Source: Chitinophagaceae bacterium
GTDB lineage: Bacteria; Bacteroidota; Bacteroidia; Chitinophagales; Chitinophagaceae
Length of the DNA stretch: 64,000 nucleotides
Assembly: GCA_947380905.1 (NCBI GenBank)
Contig: CANCSS010000001.1
Span: 62,001-126,000, forward strand
Direction: 5' to 3'
The notes under the pieces were generated by a model that had not been told where the DNA came from, ran no database searches, and saw only the letters and a list, made by a program, of their open reading frames with translations. Position numbers and translations under genes: made by a program. This document shows positions 46,290-54,533 of this stretch, one piece after another. Every line of letters starts with the position of its first letter. Position 1 is the stretch's first letter.

Positions 46290-48491
46290 ATGAAAAAAAA
46301 TACCCTTACTAGCTTGCTTACTATTTTGATGGTTGCCATTTTTGCCAGTAATCTACAAGGTCAACAAACTACAGCTACAGCTGCAGATAAAGTACGGTGG
46401 GAGTTACACGCAAAGCAAGTAAATATTATAAGAGACGAATGGGATATTCCACATATTTATGGAAAGACCGATGCCGATGCCATTTTTGGTTTAATGTATG
46501 CCCAATGCGAAGAAAATTTTGCTCAAATTGAATTGAACTATTTAGAAATGCTTGGTCGAACTGCCGAAGTAGCTGGAGCGAATGCTATTTATGAAGATTT
46601 AATGATGCGTTTAATACAAGACAGCGTGGAAGCCATTAAAGATTTTAACAAAAGTCCCGTTTGGTTTAAAAATTTATTACAAGCGCATGCAGATGGTTTA
46701 AATTATTATTTATACAAACACCCCGAAATACATCCTAAAGTAATTACTTATTTTAAGCCCTGGTATCATTTGATGTGGACCGATGGAAGTGTTTCTCCCA
46801 CAAGAACTGGAGGTATCAAAACCGAAGACGTAGCTAATTTTTATGGCGATAAAAATAAATTAGCCATTCATACCCTTCCCAATTTTGAAGAAAAAATAAG
46901 TACGGGATCCAATGGTTTTGCCATTGCACCCATGCATAGTAAAAATGGAAATGCATTGTTGTACATCAACCCACATGTGCCTTTTTATTTTAGATCTGAA
47001 ATGCATATGAATAGTGAAGAAGGATTAAATGTGTATGGGGCTGTTACTTGGGGTCAAATGTTTATTTACCAAGGGTTTAATGAACATTGTGGATGGATGC
47101 ATACCAGCAGCTATGCCGATGTGGCCGATGTATATGAAGAAAAAATGAAAAAAAATACTACAGGTTGGGTCTCCATCTACGAAAATGAAGAAAAAAAAGT
47201 AGTACAAAGAAACATCCGCTTACAATATACAGAAGGGGGCGTAATAAAATCAAAGTCTTTTATTACTTATAAAACAATTCACGGACCAGTGATGGGAAGT
47301 AAAAATGGGAAATGGTTAAGTCTTCAAGAAAACAATCGTTCTTTAAACGCTTTGTTGGAATGTTGGACCAGAACCAAAGCCACGCATCTTCAATCCTATC
47401 AAAAAGCATTGTCTTTACTAGCCAACAATAGCAACAATACTGTTTACGCTGATGGAGACGGTAATATCGCCTATTGGCATGGAAATTTTATGCCCAAAAG
47501 AAATCCCACATACAATTATAGTTTGCCTGTAGACGGATCTATTAAGCGTACCAATTGGAATGGGGTGCACCCCTTAAATGAAATTGTACAAAGTATTAAT
47601 CCATCCAATGGCTGGTTGCAAAATTGCAATGCAACTCCCTTTACTGTGGCGGGTATCCAAAGCCCTAAAGCCGAAAATTATCCATCTTATATGGCGCCAG
47701 ATGGGGAAAATGGAAGAGGCATTACAGCAGTTACATTATTAGAAAAAATAGATAAAATAAGTTTAGATGATTTGATACGCATTGGCTACAACAGGCACAT
47801 GTCGGCCTTTGATGTTTTACTTCCTTCGTTTTTAGCCTATGCAAAAACAGTTTCATTAAATGAAAAAGAAAAGAAAGCAATTCAATATTTAAGTAACTGG
47901 AATCATGATGGAGATACTGCTTCTATTGCAACTGCCATTGCAATAGAGTGGGCTACCGAATGGAGCAAAGAATTACCGCCAGCTCCAACAGAAGAAACAA
48001 GTACGCATGTATGGAAAAAATATGAACGAATGGTTACTGCCGTTTCCAATGAAAAAAAATTAGAATTATTAAATAAAGCATTGACTCAAATTGAAAAATT
48101 ATATGGTTCTTGGGAAATTACTTGGGGCAGCATCAATAGATATCAAAGGGTGAACCCGGGTGAAAAATTTAATGACCAAATGCCTAGTATCGCTGTGGGT
48201 CAAGCTTCTTCCAAATGGGGTACTTTGCCTGCATTTGAAAGTAAAAGACAAGAAAATACCAATAAAAGATACGGTTACTCTGGAAGTAGTTTTATTGCAG
48301 CAGTTAGTTTTGGAAAAAAACTAGAAGCAAAAACAATTATTACTGGAGGTCAAAGTCGTTTTGCCAATTCAACTCATTTCACAGACCAAGCTCAAAAGTA
48401 TATTGCAGGTGATTTTAAAACCATTCACTTTTACAAAGACGATGTTTTAGCACATGAAGTAATATCATACAAACCTGGATTCACTAGGTAA
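46290..48491 (+). CDS. Penicillin-acylase-family Ntn hydrolase (first of two)
   Basis: A 733-residue exported enzyme (signal peptide cut near LQGQQ). It is made as a precursor that cleaves itself. The new N-terminal nucleophile is S207 in STG|SNGFAIAP, dividing the chain into a roughly 180-residue alpha subunit (starting VNIIRDEWDIPHIYG, typical of the family) and a 527-residue beta subunit. Family members cleave amide-linked acyl groups from beta-lactams, homoserine lactones or peptides; the substrate here is unknown. Its last 61 bases overlap the divergent regulator gene on the other strand. A second paralogue lies 4 kb away at 52458-54533. Confidence 0.84.
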   Translation: MKKNTLTSLLTILMVAIFASNLQGQQTTATAADKVRWELHAKQVNIIRDEWDIPHIYGKTDADAIFGLMYAQCEENFAQIELNYLEMLGRTAEVAGANAIYEDLMMRLIQDSVEAIKDFNKSPVWFKNLLQAHADGLNYYLYKHPEIHPKVITYFKPWYHLMWTDGSVSPTRTGGIKTEDVANFYGDKNKLAIHTLPNFEEKISTGSNGFAIAPMHSKNGNALLYINPHVPFYFRSEMHMNSEEGLNVYGAVTWGQMFIYQGFNEHCGWMHTSSYADVADVYEEKMKKNTTGWVSIYENEEKKVVQRNIRLQYTEGGVIKSKSFITYKTIHGPVMGSKNGKWLSLQENNRSLNALLECWTRTKATHLQSYQKALSLLANNSNNTVYADGDGNIAYWHGNFMPKRNPTYNYSLPVDGSIKRTNWNGVHPLNEIVQSINPSNGWLQNCNATPFTVAGIQSPKAENYPSYMAPDGENGRGITAVTLLEKIDKISLDDLIRIGYNRHMSAFDVLLPSFLAYAKTVSLNEKEKKAIQYLSNWNHDGDTASIATAIAIEWATEWSKELPPAPTEETSTHVWKKYERMVTAVSNEKKLELLNKALTQIEKLYGSWEITWGSINRYQRVNPGEKFNDQMPSIAVGQASSKWGTLPAFESKRQENTNKRYGYSGSSFIAAVSFGKKLEAKTIITGGQSRFANSTHFTDQAQKYIAGDFKTIHFYKDDVLAHEVISYKPGFTR

Positions 48492-49150
48492 TGATCATAC
48501 AACTTTGAGATAAATGCCACTTTTACCAAACCCGCTAAATTTTTAACTTCTAACTTTTGCATCATTTTAGTGCGATGACCTTCAATGGTTCTTTTGCTAT
48601 GCCCTACTTCATATGCAATTTGCTTGCTAGAAGCTTCTTCGCAAATACGCACTAAGATGTACTTATCATAAGTATGAAGTTGATGTACTTTTTCGGTCAA
48701 TTTAATTTTCTCCATATGATTGACCATGGCAAACACTTTGTCTGAAATGATAGAGCAAAAATATATTTTATTGAGTCGGGCCATTTCTAAAGCTTTGGAC
48801 CATTCTTGTCTTGTTACATTTCTAGAGATAACAACATTTATACCATTGTCAATGAGTTGATACAAATGGGCATCGTCTTGCTCATTAAATACTACCATAA
48901 TCGACATCTTTTCCCTTAGTGCACGTATTTGGGCCATGGCTTCGGAATGACCATAATCAAATAAAGAACTGTCCACCACTAAAAGCAAGGAACATGCTTT
49001 TTGGCTTTGCTCATTTTCCAACCAATCATCTAATTCTTTTAAACTTTTAATGATATGATAGCCCATTAACATTGGATTCTCTTTAATAAGAAAGCCACAT
49101 CCCATGGCATATACATTTTGTTGATCGCATATAATTACTTGACTTTGCAT
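48431..49150 (-). CDS. Orphan response regulator with LuxR-type HTH
   Basis: A 239-residue regulator. The N-terminal half is receiver-like (QVIICDQQNVYAMGCG, LLLVVDSSLFDYG with a possible phospho-acceptor Asp), but the usual acidic pair is poorly conserved (only one acid near the start), so it may be degenerate. The C-terminal half is a LuxR/GerE helix-turn-helix: LVRICEEASSKQIAYEVGHSKRTIEGHRTKMMQKLEVKN. No histidine kinase is encoded near it. The start lies 261 bases from the divergent ATP-grasp gene, so it could control that operon, and its tail overlaps the acylase gene by 61 bases. Confidence 0.78.
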   Translation of the reverse strand: MQSQVIICDQQNVYAMGCGFLIKENPMLMGYHIIKSLKELDDWLENEQSQKACSLLLVVDSSLFDYGHSEAMAQIRALREKMSIMVVFNEQDDAHLYQLIDNGINVVISRNVTRQEWSKALEMARLNKIYFCSIISDKVFAMVNHMEKIKLTEKVHQLHTYDKYILVRICEEASSKQIAYEVGHSKRTIEGHRTKMMQKLEVKNLAGLVKVAFISKLYDHYLVNPGLYDITSCAKTSSL

Positions 49151-49411: not shown

Positions 49412-50530
49412 TTGTCATCAATTCGTAACTTATTTTACCCTTTTGTTCCAGTAGGACATTTGAAAGTGTGGGTACTTGCCCCAGCCTTGGACAATCCGGA
49501 TCCTAACTTGGCGTACTATTATGACTTTAGTCAAAGTATTGAAGAATATACACGAGTTTTTGAACAATTAGAATTGCCTTGGAAATGGCAACCTGTTTCT
49601 TTAAATAGTTACAAAACCATTGTACAAGAAATTGCACATGAAAGAGAAAAAGGAATTTATTTTCCTGTGGTTTTAAATTTATGTGACGGAGACGAAATAA
49701 ATGGTGCGCCTGGCGTGTCTGTTATAAAAGCATTAGATGCTAAGCAATTGGTTTATACTGGTGCCAACGATTATTTTTACGATATCACTACTTCTAAAAT
49801 TCCTATGAAAGAAGCTTTTGATTTAGCAGGTGTAGCTACGCCAAAATGGGAAGCCATTAGAACCAATGACATCAATGAAAAAGAATTGCTTAAAAATTTA
49901 GGTAGCCCATTAATTGTCAAGCCTGCTGTTTCTGGTGGAAGCTTGGGGGTTGGTGTAAAAAATGTAGTAGAAACGCCCTCCGAATTAAAAACTCAATTAA
50001 CTAAAATGTTTGAGGGTTATAGAGGCTGGAATTTAGTGACAGACGGAATTCTAGCTGAATCATTTATTGAAGGGCCTGAATATACGGTGATGATTGTAGG
50101 AAGTCATACCCATCCAGAATATGCAAAAATTTATCCTCCCATTGAAAGAGTTTTTCATGCCTCACTTCCTGAAAAAGAAAAATTTTTATCCTTTGATCGC
50201 TTATGGGAAATATATGAAGAAGAAACCCCAATGCCTGAAGAAGAAAATTTTTATCAATACCAACTAGGCGACGAAGCCATACAAATGGCGGTTCAAAAAA
50301 TTTCTTGGGATGCCTATGTAGCTGTGAATGGTACAGGCTATACCCGGGTAGACGTTCGAATTGACAACAAAACAGGTATCCCCTATGTATTAGAAGTAAA
50401 TGCGCAATGCGGTATCAGTGAAGATGAAAACTTTACTTCTATTGGTGCCATTTTGAGATATGCGAATCAGAGTTTTACCGAATTGGTAGTACATATTATT
50501 AACGACGCATTTGCAAGAAGAAAAAAATAA
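49412..50530 (+). CDS. D-Ala-D-Ala ligase-like ATP-grasp protein
   Basis: A 372-residue ATP-grasp ligase. Motifs fit the D-alanine-D-alanine ligase fold: LIVKPAVSGGSLGVGVKNV (ATP loop, about 167-185), ESFIEGPEYTVMI and the metal site YVLEVNAQCGISEDENF. The N-terminal segment VWVLAPALDNPDPNLAYYYDFS differs from housekeeping Ddl, so a different amino acid, peptide or amine acceptor is likely. Translation appears to begin with TTG at 49412; no upstream ATG is in frame. The second ATP-grasp gene starts 4 bases after the stop, and the two proteins are similar in motifs, suggesting two sequential ligation steps. Confidence 0.8.
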   Translation: MSSIRNLFYPFVPVGHLKVWVLAPALDNPDPNLAYYYDFSQSIEEYTRVFEQLELPWKWQPVSLNSYKTIVQEIAHEREKGIYFPVVLNLCDGDEINGAPGVSVIKALDAKQLVYTGANDYFYDITTSKIPMKEAFDLAGVATPKWEAIRTNDINEKELLKNLGSPLIVKPAVSGGSLGVGVKNVVETPSELKTQLTKMFEGYRGWNLVTDGILAESFIEGPEYTVMIVGSHTHPEYAKIYPPIERVFHASLPEKEKFLSFDRLWEIYEEETPMPEEENFYQYQLGDEAIQMAVQKISWDAYVAVNGTGYTRVDVRIDNKTGIPYVLEVNAQCGISEDENFTSIGAILRYANQSFTELVVHIINDAFARRKK

Positions 50531-50534
50531 AATT

Positions 50535-51980
50535 ATGCGCCCGCTTCCCCAATTAAATCATCCTGAAAGTTTTAAAGACTTAAAAATTTGCGTCCTTCAA
50601 CCCGACTACACTACTTCTAAAGTTGATTATCAATATTACGATCCCAAAAGAGACTTGTCGGCTATTATGCCCGAAGCAGATATCGCTCATATTTATCTAA
50701 ATAAGTTAACGACCTACCAACAGCTAAAAGAATTAAAAGATAAAAACTACGATATCTATATTAACTTATGTGAAGGTTATTTGGAATGGGAAGTGCCTTC
50801 TATTGATGTCATTATAAGCATGGATTTATTAGGATTGCCCTATACCGGGCCCAATGCCAACTTATATGACCCGCCTAAAACCATCATGAAGTACTTGGCA
50901 TTTTGTGAGGATGTTGTTACCCCAGCGCATATACTTATAGAATCTTTGGAAGACTTACATCAATTGCCAGGTAATTTAAAATTTCCCTTATTTGTTAAGC
51001 CTGCGAAAGCCGGAGACAGCTTAGGCGTGGATGATGCTTCTAAAGCAAACAACATCGAAGACCTACTGGTGAAGGTAAAGAATATAGTAAACGAATTTGG
51101 ATCTGCCTTGGTAGAAGAATACATTGCTGGTCGCGAATTTACAGTATTGGTTTGTGGCAATGCAGATGGTAAAACCTGTACCAGTTTTGTGCCCGTCGAA
51201 TATATTTTCCCCGAGGGGTTTAGTTTTAAAACCTATGCTTTAAAAACTTCCGAATTACATCCAACTGCAAATATTCCTGTTACTGAGACTGCCTTAGCCA
51301 ATAAATTAAAAAGTATTGCAGAGCAAGTTTTTATGTCTTTTAATGGAGTTGGTTATGGAAGAATGGATTTTAGAATGAACGATAAAGGAGAAATTTTCTT
51401 TCTTGAAATAAATTTTACTTGCTCTGTTTTTTATGCGCAAGGATATGAAGGATCAGCAGATTATATTTTACTGCACGACGGCATTGGACAAAGAGGCTTC
51501 TTAGAAAGAATTATTATTGAGGGTATGTCCAGGTATCGTAGAAAAGAAAAATTGTTTACCATCAAAGGCAACGCTATTGCTGGTTATGGCATGTATGCAA
51601 AAAGAGATTTGCCAAAAAATACTTTATTGTTTAAAGGAGAAGAAAAATCACAACGTATTGTAAGTAAAAAATTTGTAGATGAAAATTGGGACGAAAGAGA
51701 AAAATTAAATTTTAGAAGATACGCCTACCCTATTAGTTCCGAAGTATATATTTTATGGGATTTACAACCCGAAGAATGGTCTCCACAAAATCATCACTGT
51801 GACGCCAATTGTACTTACAAAGGATTGAATTTATATGTCAATAGAGACATAAAAAAAGGAGAAGAGCTTACTTTAGATTATGGTAGTTTCTTAGATGAAA
51901 CCATGGAACCTTTTAACTGCCATTGTGGTTCGCCTAAGTGCCGCGGCCTTATTAAAGGCACTGCTCAAATTAAAGGCTAG
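50535..51980 (+). CDS. ATP-grasp ligase fused to a SET-domain methyltransferase
   Basis: A 481-residue two-domain protein. Residues about 15-330 are a second D-Ala-D-Ala-ligase-like ATP-grasp (FVKPAKAGDSLGVDD at 153-167, VEEYIAGREFTVLV, FFLEINFTC at 288-296). Residues about 340-452 form a SET domain: GNAIAGYGMYAKRDLPKN, NHHCDANC (419-426) and GEELTLDYG (442-450). A post-SET zinc motif follows, C462-H-C464-GSPK-C469, with C422 as likely fourth ligand. SET domains methylate lysines using S-adenosylmethionine and are rare in bacteria. I place the start at the ATG at 50535; an in-frame TTG at 50511 would overlap the previous gene. Its stop overlaps the HAD gene by 4 bases. Confidence 0.82.
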   Translation: MRPLPQLNHPESFKDLKICVLQPDYTTSKVDYQYYDPKRDLSAIMPEADIAHIYLNKLTTYQQLKELKDKNYDIYINLCEGYLEWEVPSIDVIISMDLLGLPYTGPNANLYDPPKTIMKYLAFCEDVVTPAHILIESLEDLHQLPGNLKFPLFVKPAKAGDSLGVDDASKANNIEDLLVKVKNIVNEFGSALVEEYIAGREFTVLVCGNADGKTCTSFVPVEYIFPEGFSFKTYALKTSELHPTANIPVTETALANKLKSIAEQVFMSFNGVGYGRMDFRMNDKGEIFFLEINFTCSVFYAQGYEGSADYILLHDGIGQRGFLERIIIEGMSRYRRKEKLFTIKGNAIAGYGMYAKRDLPKNTLLFKGEEKSQRIVSKKFVDENWDEREKLNFRRYAYPISSEVYILWDLQPEEWSPQNHHCDANCTYKGLNLYVNRDIKKGEELTLDYGSFLDETMEPFNCHCGSPKCRGLIKGTAQIKG

Positions 51981-52318
51981 ATTTCTTCAATTCTTTTTGC
52001 TTTATCGTCTATGACCAAATCGAAATTGGGTTTGGTAGCACCTCCATTAGGACAATAGCCTGTTATTAATTCATTGAATTTGCATCCCCATTGATTGAGT
52101 TGCGTAAGTGTTAATGCTCTTAAATCTCTTTTTGAGCTTTCCCCTCTACCCGTCCAATAAGTAATATGCCAGCCTTCCTCGAATAACTTATTAATTTTAG
52201 CTATATGTTCAAAATTGGGTTCGGCCAATTCATATACCCGCTTGTCTGAATAAAAACAGATGGTTTCATCAATATCAACCAATGCCTTCTTAGAACCAAA
52301 CCTTTTAGACTCCATCAT
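51977..52318 (-). CDS. Small HAD-superfamily phosphatase
   Basis: A 113-residue HAD-like phosphohydrolase. Motif I is D15-I-D17-E-T in LVDIDETICF, motif II is the WTGRGES region (YWTGRG), and motif III/IV lies in KPNFDLVIDDKA. It resembles the capsular or polynucleotide-kinase-3'-phosphatase-like small HADs, with no cap domain. It is convergent to the ATP-grasp-SET gene with a 4-base overlap. The substrate is unknown; a role in the neighbouring ligase pathway is possible. A second ATG lies at 52315. Confidence 0.72.
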   Translation of the reverse strand: MMESKRFGSKKALVDIDETICFYSDKRVYELAEPNFEHIAKINKLFEEGWHITYWTGRGESSKRDLRALTLTQLNQWGCKFNELITGYCPNGGATKPNFDLVIDDKAKRIEEI

Positions 52319-52457
52319 TGTTATGTATTTTAAATGTATTTAACTATGGCAAATTTAGATAGTTTCTATAAATTACAGCTTTCATTTTATTGACCACTAA
52401 AATCATTGTTAAAAACACAGCCTCTTTCAAATTTTGAACAAATTTAACCCTTCCACC

Positions 52458-54533
52458 ATGAGATACTTTTTTTTATCGCTTTTTGTATGCCTATTTCAAT
52501 TCGCCTCTGCACAAATAACAAATAACCCAATAATAAGAACCGATAAAATTACCATAGCACGTGATGCGTATGGCGTACCCCATATTTTCGCCCCCACCGA
52601 CCCAGAAGTAGCCTATGGATTGGCTTGGGCACATGCCGAAGATGATTTTACGACCATTCAAACCCTCCTGCTTACTGGTAAAGGAAAATTGGCTACCTAT
52701 CTTGGAAAAAAAGGAGCACCAATTGATTATGTAGTAGGATTACTCAATACCAAAGCAATTGTAATGGCACAGATAGATCAAATGGACCCTGCTTTTTTAC
52801 AATTGGTAAGAGGCTATTTGTTAGGTTTAGAAGCTTATGCAAAAGCACACCCTAATGACTTGCTTAATAAAAATGTATTTCCAATTACGATAGAAGAATA
52901 TTTATCCGCTACTGTTTTTTCAGTCGCTGTATTTTGTGGTGTGGATAAAGCTTTGCCAAAAATCTTAAATGGTACCATGGATGCTTTGCCTGGTTTAAAA
53001 GGAGAAGGCAGCAACTCTATTGCAGTTCATTCCAGCAAATCTGCTTCTGGCGAAAACATGTTGCTTATTAATGCGCATCAACCTATTGAAGGGGCTACTG
53101 CTTTTTATGAAGCACATCTTCAAAGTGAAGAAGGCTGGAATATTTTAGGAGGATTGTTTCCAGGTGCACCATTGATATTCCATGGTGTTACCCCCAACTT
53201 GGCTTGGGCACATACGGTGAACTTGCAAGATAAAATAGATGTATATCAATTGCAAACCGATAAGCAACATCCAGGACAATATAAAGTAGATGGTGAATGG
53301 CTCACACTTGAAAAAAGAAAAATAAAATTAAGTATCAAGGGCATTCCATTCCCTATTTATAAAACGGCCTATACCTCCATCTACGGGCCTACTGCAGCCT
53401 CGCCAAATGGTGAATATTTTTCGATGCGTTTGCCTTCCTTAATGGATGCAGGTGCGGTTCAACAATGGTACGCCATGAACAAAGCACAAAACTTTACCCA
53501 ATTCAAAGCGGCTTTAACACAGAACCATTTACCCATGTTTAATATTGTATACGCCGATAAAAGCGATACTATATTTTATATTTCCAATGGGAAAATGCCC
53601 TATCGCAATGCAGATACCAGCTACCATTGGAATGCAACTTTACCTGGCAATACGCTTGCAACCCTTTGGACAAAGTTTAAACCATTAAGTGCTTTACCTC
53701 AATACCTGAATCCAAAAAGTGGTTACTTGTTTAATACCAATCATTCTCCTTTTTTAGCAACAGCCGAAAATGAAAATTTAAATCCTGCCAGTTTTGATAC
53801 TTACGATGGATATGAATTAACGCATAATAATCGTAGTCGTCGTGCTAAAGATTTAATAGATCAATTAGATAAAATTAGTTATGCCGATTTAAAACGTATC
53901 AAATTTGACCGTCAACTTCCTGCACAAATTTTATATCCTTATGAATTTACAGCAGATACCTTATTTATGTTGGATGAAAATAAGTATCCACATTTAGCAC
54001 CTCTAATTCTAAGTTTAAAGAAATGGGACCATCAAGCTGTTGCCGAAAGCAATGGGGCACTGATTTATAATTTGGCTTATTATCAAGTACCTAAAATAAT
54101 GAAAGACCATAAATTTGAGCACTTGACTACCACAGAAGCGGTAGCTACCTATGAATACATCTATCAATTCTTAATGAAAAATTACCAACGTTTAGATGTG
54201 AGTTTAGGAGAAGTGCAACGTTTGGTAAGAGGAGATGAAAACTGGCCACAAAGCGGTATGCCCGATGTATTGGCAGCGGTTCATACAGAAAAATTTGGCG
54301 AAGCACAACGTAAAATGAATAGTGGAGATGCTTATATAGGGTTTGTTCGCTTTCCTAAAAATGGAAGTTTGCCACTCATTGAAACGGTGAATACTTTTGG
54401 TGCCAGTTCGGTAAAAGGAAATAAACATTATGCCGATCAAAGGGCCATGTATCAAGCACAACAAGTTAAAAAAATGACTTTGGATAAAGAAGAGGTCTTA
54501 AAAAATGCGGAAAGTATTTACCATCCTCAATAA
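52458..54533 (+). CDS. Penicillin-acylase-family Ntn hydrolase (second of two)
   Basis: A 691-residue exported acylase (signal peptide MRYFFLSLFVCLFQFASAQ). The open frame extends to a TTG at 52434, but the ATG at 52458 gives a proper signal peptide. The predicted autocatalytic nucleophile is S185 in GEG|SNSIAVHS, preceded by an alpha part starting ITIARDAYGVPHIFAPT, and followed by LINAHQPIEGATAFYEAHL and NLAWAHTVN, typical of the family. It is clearly a paralogue of the acylase at 46290, but the two sequences differ widely, so they may have different substrates. It follows the HAD gene, with divergent promoters. Confidence 0.84.
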   Translation: MRYFFLSLFVCLFQFASAQITNNPIIRTDKITIARDAYGVPHIFAPTDPEVAYGLAWAHAEDDFTTIQTLLLTGKGKLATYLGKKGAPIDYVVGLLNTKAIVMAQIDQMDPAFLQLVRGYLLGLEAYAKAHPNDLLNKNVFPITIEEYLSATVFSVAVFCGVDKALPKILNGTMDALPGLKGEGSNSIAVHSSKSASGENMLLINAHQPIEGATAFYEAHLQSEEGWNILGGLFPGAPLIFHGVTPNLAWAHTVNLQDKIDVYQLQTDKQHPGQYKVDGEWLTLEKRKIKLSIKGIPFPIYKTAYTSIYGPTAASPNGEYFSMRLPSLMDAGAVQQWYAMNKAQNFTQFKAALTQNHLPMFNIVYADKSDTIFYISNGKMPYRNADTSYHWNATLPGNTLATLWTKFKPLSALPQYLNPKSGYLFNTNHSPFLATAENENLNPASFDTYDGYELTHNNRSRRAKDLIDQLDKISYADLKRIKFDRQLPAQILYPYEFTADTLFMLDENKYPHLAPLILSLKKWDHQAVAESNGALIYNLAYYQVPKIMKDHKFEHLTTTEAVATYEYIYQFLMKNYQRLDVSLGEVQRLVRGDENWPQSGMPDVLAAVHTEKFGEAQRKMNSGDAYIGFVRFPKNGSLPLIETVNTFGASSVKGNKHYADQRAMYQAQQVKKMTLDKEEVLKNAESIYHPQ

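Follow-up and report, generated by a model that had tools for sequence, protein, structure and literature searches.

A conserved pair of D-Ala-D-Ala-ligase-like ATP-grasp proteins, one fused to a SET domain, and its probable solo SET partner in Chitinophagaceae

What might a bacterium make with two adjacent ligases of the D-Ala-D-Ala ligase (Ddl) fold family, one of which ends in a SET domain, a type of enzyme known chiefly for methylating lysines in chromatin? This arrangement is found in a 64,000-nucleotide stretch of contig CANCSS010000001.1 (here the window) from a freshwater bacterium of the Chitinophagaceae, and the ligase and SET gene set is also present in many of its relatives. The first gene, LigA (positions 49412..50530, + strand; TTG start, exact start uncertain), encodes a stand-alone ATP-grasp ligase (Dala_Dala_lig_C, PF07478, 61 bits in Pfam with a cut-off of 24) whose ATP-grasp residues were invariant in 11 sequences. 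It is followed after 4 bases (50531..50534, + strand, read directly from the sequence) by LigB-SET (50535..51980, + strand; ATG start), in which an N-terminal Ddl-like ATP-grasp ligase (PF07478, 77.4 bits, cut-off 24) is joined to a C-terminal SET and post-SET domain (51546..51977, + strand; PF00856, 44.4 bits at residues 358–458 of the 489-aa ORF, cut-off 22.4). Coordinates and Pfam matches confirmed the original prediction of two adjacent Ddl-like ligases 4 bases apart, and the SET domain of the second was complete as had been described, with the SET and post-SET motifs NHxC (here NHHC), GEELTLDY and CxCx4C, and also with GxG.

The architecture search that the prediction had called for placed the pair beyond chance, LigB being found in 50/50 and LigA in 48/50 related loci (L025–L074, contig scan with patterns from one close sequence). 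Spacing between the two genes in six outgroup loci ranged from a 4-base overlap up to an 88-base gap. The locus had been said to match no described system, and no description of an ATP-grasp ligase–SET pair was found among the literature matches listed (subscription journals were mostly outside the scope and a description elsewhere is possible); neither 'ligase' nor 'D-ala' occurs in the text of PMC3980110, on bacterial SET proteins, nor does 'SET domain' in that of PMC4431377, on ATP-grasp enzymes. The pair is a genuine and conserved unit that, from what could be seen, has yet to be characterised, and it differs from what the window by itself would suggest: its likely closest partner, a solo SET gene, lies elsewhere in the genome.

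ATP-grasp ligases of the Ddl family form acyl phosphates and then join them to amines, small amino or hydroxy acids being the substrates of its known members. The nearest solved ligases to LigA and LigB are D-Ala-D-Ala ligases; scores against the NCBIfam Ddl models were far below the cut-off for LigA (best 92.2 bits, cut-off 243) and for LigB-SET (best 77.8 bits, cut-off 245.65). A second Ddl-like protein of 328 aa is encoded elsewhere in the same genome (G000:C28), 25% identical to LigA and 30% to LigB over the aligned part, so that LigA and LigB are not its only Ddl-like genes and a housekeeping Ddl role for them is disfavoured. From Ddl and Van ligases the pair differs in the fusion of LigB to SET and also in gene surroundings. 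A reading of the substrate from Ddl active-site positions was dropped: LigA shows an apparent Glu-for-Ser change, but this is doubtful, because a 3-residue insertion falls there when LigA is aligned with the second Ddl-like protein of the genome. Operon-like sets that contain two neighbouring Ddl-like ATP-grasp ligases also occur in other Bacteroidota (L110:8519-12349, L111:6856-10608, L112:7952-11820, L115:5334-9080), beside GNAT-like and lysine 2,3-aminomutase-like genes (the mutase scanned in all four loci, GNAT by Pfam in L110 and L111); these sets perhaps represent an acetyl-beta-lysine-type pathway extended by peptide ligases. They differ from the pair studied here in that no SET gene of such kind was seen among their listed ORFs and in that their ligases are more Ddl-like (161–198 bits to NF002378 for three proteins, against 92 for LigA and 75 for LigB), and on the latter ground a lysine substrate inferred from such operons was rejected.

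The solo SET gene lies outside the window, as does an ABC-transporter membrane gene present in many genomes, and both were hence missed by the original prediction. In six outgroup loci (L063–L066, L068, L074) a solo SET protein of 160–169 residues is encoded directly upstream of LigA; no solo SET gene was adjacent to the pair in L055, L097, L141 and L142. A census of 294 genomes of the family, the window's own included, gave LigB-SET in at least 84, solo SET in at least 80 and both in at least 78, with neither in 208, LigB alone in six and solo SET alone in two; three LigB genomes of 100% completeness (G034, G580, G718) contained no solo SET. The carrier counts, like those of the phylum scan below, are minima, only part of the candidates having been scored in large genomes, and the co-occurrence counts take genomes without regard to relatedness. 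Among the 78 carriers of both, the two genes shared one contig in 68, and in 66 the solo SET gene was on the same strand 1.1–2.8 kb upstream of LigB-SET; it was 1 kb downstream in G092 and 1.7 Mb away in G350, and the genes were on different contigs in 10, including the window's genome. By genus, LigB was found in 37/101 and solo SET in 37/101, with 36 in common. The ABC membrane protein (PF13748 in the five members tested by Pfam) was encoded in at least 36 census genomes (34 of the 84 LigB carriers and two others; 18 genera, all with LigB), in 31/31 same-contig cases 56–228 bp downstream of LigB-SET on the same strand, and was not found in 50/84 LigB genomes, the window's included. The window shows the ligase pair only, because the solo SET gene of its genome is on another contig (G000:C4, among unrelated genes) and an ABC gene of this type was not found in the assembly, which is 82% complete. 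One same-genus locus (L138:5774-12684) has a more complete layout, which reads TIM-barrel gene, response regulator, small gene, solo SET, LigA, LigB-SET and ABC membrane protein.

In a second set of 60 relatives, own genome included, LigB-SET was present in 18/37 same-genus genomes and 0/23 others, and in 11 of the 12 carriers of a strong solo SET; the exception, G026, is 69% complete. Conversely, 7/18 LigB carriers were without a strong solo SET, among them G025, G027 and G034, which are 99–100% complete. As a control, a treble-clef-like protein that recurs near the set (5/12 outgroup loci) was found in 4/18 LigB genomes and 18/42 genomes without LigB; since it does not track LigB, nearness alone does not yield such co-occurrence, and the protein was rejected as a member and taken as local synteny. 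SSB and a PIF1-like helicase were each near the set in 4/12 outgroup loci compared. No conserved precursor peptide was found beside the ligases in 14 loci (ATG starts, 18–95 aa, within 1.5 kb), the 17 small-ORF clusters seen in at least 3/14 loci all being positioned within the span of the operon; assignment to the graspetides (ATP-grasp RiPPs) was dropped for want of a conserved precursor peptide.

The solo SET protein has about 165 aa, similar in size to BurB of Burkholderia thailandensis (172 aa; PDB 9l4t, 9l4v), a SET-domain methyltransferase that converts free methionine to S-methylmethionine (PMC12542666, PMC7496086). By sequence and by predicted fold, BurB is the nearest solved relative of the solo SET protein, ahead of histone methyltransferases: a profile of solo SET sequences scored 64.8 bits with BurB and then 34.2 with KMT2A, and the window genome's own copy 46.8 bits with BurB and 31.3 with the next protein. 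A fold model of the L074 copy, built with six sequences (mean pLDDT 80.8), returned BurB first in Foldseek (E 6.4e-08; MLL4 4.0e-06), though the structures agreed only modestly (TM-score about 0.6, rmsd 5.6–6.0). Identity to BurB was 28–30%, and residues matching BurB His93 and Tyr124 were retained in the solo SET alignment. As a control, BurB was not listed for two further solo SET genes of the genome (G000:C2:107701-107997 and G000:C32:10971-11285), of which one matched SETD7 and vSET and the other gave only weak matches, making the latter a weak control. At that identity and structural agreement the BurB substrate cannot be carried over to the solo SET protein, and since BurB contacts methionine via the main chain (PMC12542666), sequence cannot tell whether methionine is the substrate. 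The available part of the BurB account names no ligase partner (PMC12542666), whereas the solo SET gene is linked to ATP-grasp ligases. The resemblance to BurB makes a small-molecule role the leading reading.

For the SET half of LigB, BurB was not the closest solved protein: its profile scored 53.1 bits with KMT2D and 48.2 bits with BurB, placing it by sequence slightly nearer the histone-type enzyme, and protein methylation would fit this half too. In the fold model of LigB-SET (mean pLDDT 70), the structure matches listed by Foldseek and VIA were all Ddl-type, and the SET fold of this half consequently rests on its sequence.

Beyond the family, full-length LigB-SET was found in at least 17/395 genomes across the phylum, own genome included; genome searches covered the window's phylum only. 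In one further class it was present in 9/98 genomes, all of one genus of a single family (f37). In f37, a solo SET gene and a second small SET gene stood beside LigB-SET in 6/6 loci, with a full ABC transporter gene between in 5/6 (PF00664 and PF00005 by Pfam in all five); in the remaining locus, L102, the ORF caller had chosen an overlapping frame at this position. LigA was beside LigB in none of the nine loci read outside the window's family, and no solo SET was seen among the listed ORFs of three of them (L100, L101, L106). The full set accordingly belongs to the window's family, and a related set without LigA occurs in f37. Viral contigs, scanned with patterns from two peptides, yielded no confirmed relative, and plasmids and phages gave no match covering 80% of LigB-SET. 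In one distant locus (L101:4541-10292), genes near LigB-SET encode an ATP-grasp protein resembling glutathione synthetase, a carboxypeptidase of the MATCAP type (PF08014) and an N-formylglutamate amidohydrolase (PF05013).

Domain content, conserved motifs, gene order and co-occurrence were observed directly. The reading that fits them best, to which we give about an even chance, is that solo SET, LigA, LigB-SET and often the ABC membrane gene form a compact pathway whose product is a methylated amino acid or oligopeptide. For its chemistry, step order, substrates and export we infer the following course. The solo SET protein would methylate a free amino acid or another small molecule of that sort, by analogy with BurB and methionine; LigA and the ATP-grasp half of LigB may then activate a carboxylate with ATP and join it to an amine, so that a compound like a di- or tripeptide results; in step with ligation, the SET half of LigB would methylate an amine or other nucleophile of this compound; and the product would be exported where the ABC gene is present. 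We class the set with ATP-grasp ligase pathways that include a methyltransferase, its use of SET chemistry being unusual.

In a rather unlikely alternative, the set modifies protein: the ATP-grasp halves would attach amino acids to proteins, at a side chain or at a terminus, while protein lysines would be methylated by the SET domains, a bacterial form of tagging of the tubulin-tyrosine-ligase type. The nearness of the LigB SET half to histone lysine methyltransferases is in its favour, as is the distant L101 locus, where LigB-SET lies near the MATCAP-type carboxypeptidase and another ATP-grasp ligase. The ligases, however, are Ddl-like, of a family with small amino or hydroxy acids as known substrates, the solo SET protein resembles an enzyme acting on a free amino acid, and a transporter gene comes next in many genomes. 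A further point for protein modification is eukaryotic TTLL12, which likewise joins SET-like and TTL-like domains in one chain (PMC3520985); it is set apart by its description, being eukaryotic, TTL-type and, in the part of the account available, reported inactive for both activities (PMC3520985), and the ligase half of LigB is Ddl-type by Pfam and fold, so that LigB-SET is not a fusion of the TTLL12 type.

The proximity of both ligases to solved D-Ala-D-Ala ligases also allows a role in the cell envelope, in which LigA and LigB would produce an alternative form of the peptide stem, cross-bridge or head group, to be methylated by the SET domains and moved by the ABC protein, the latter's membrane region (PF13748) being encoded downstream. 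Against this stand the separate Ddl-like gene of the genome and the patchy distribution (84/294 genomes), which is unusual for a wall essential, and we regard such a role as improbable.

It is very unlikely that the SET half of LigB has no catalytic activity and serves a structural or regulatory purpose, although the SET-like domain of TTLL12 is described, in the part of the account available, as lacking critical residues and activity (PMC3520985), and the GxG motif is not kept in all distant LigB sequences: in 10 LigB sequences, the most divergent of them at 36% identity, N-H-x-C, D-Y and the three post-SET cysteines did not vary.

The original prediction had also drawn the flanking genes of the window into one tailoring system with the pair. 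The genes themselves are largely as described. Two penicillin-acylase-family proteins (PF01804, 366 and 351 bits in Pfam; against the PvdQ model 75 and 180.5 bits, cut-off 950) are encoded on either side of the pair at 46290-48491 and 52434-54533, and a LuxR-type protein at 48431-49150 (GerE, 38.9 bits, with no receiver-domain match in Pfam). The supposed HAD phosphatase (113 aa, 51977-52318) is 81–96% identical in close relatives but gave no match to any Pfam or NCBIfam family at E 0.01, so that a DxDET motif is the one feature in favour of its name. In the 50 close-relative loci L025–L074, many of which end early at contig ends, acylase 1 recurred in 36, acylase 2 in 34, the HAD protein in 35 and the LuxR-type protein in 40. 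This recurrence is ordinary synteny, since genes without a plausible link recur there too (a sugar dehydrogenase in 30/50, an S41 peptidase in 17/50). Neighbour conservation therefore held among close relatives only: of 24 loci lying beyond the syntenic block of the window (two of which, L074 and L142, stop at LigB, with the downstream side outside view), none had acylase 1, acylase 2, the HAD protein or the dehydrogenase close to the pair, and a single one, L138, had a weak relative of the LuxR-type protein (25%), which also has the TIM-barrel (epimerase-like) gene. The L138 regulator has receiver and GerE domains, and in the window's LuxR-type protein, at a like place, GerE alone was matched. 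In L055, LigB is 78% identical to that of the window, yet the surroundings of the pair are wholly different. A single cluster of pair, acylases, LuxR-type regulator and HAD protein is thus highly improbable, despite the recurrence of all four flanking genes in close relatives and the LuxR-type response regulator three genes upstream of LigA in same-genus L138, and the acylases and HAD protein were rejected as parts of the system. What stands of the proposed tailoring system is the ligase and SET unit, which plausibly tailors an amino acid or peptide.

Returning to the compact pathway, its fuller form would be a nonribosomal route tailored by SET-fold methyltransferases of eukaryote type, one free and BurB-like and one fused to an ATP-grasp peptide ligase, which would couple ligation and methylation within a single protein. 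The product would be a methylated oligopeptide or a compound of osmolyte type, made in many genera of the window's family and also in another lineage of Bacteroidota; we put this forward tentatively, at somewhat less than an even chance. In the available part of one source, natural-product methyltransferases before BurB had been found only in classes I and III (PMC7496086). If the pathway is as proposed, small-molecule metabolism would have a second and quite distinct use for SET chemistry, with the operon in 37/101 genera of the family, and through the gene set one could ask directly what function SET proteins have in bacteria, which lack chromatin.
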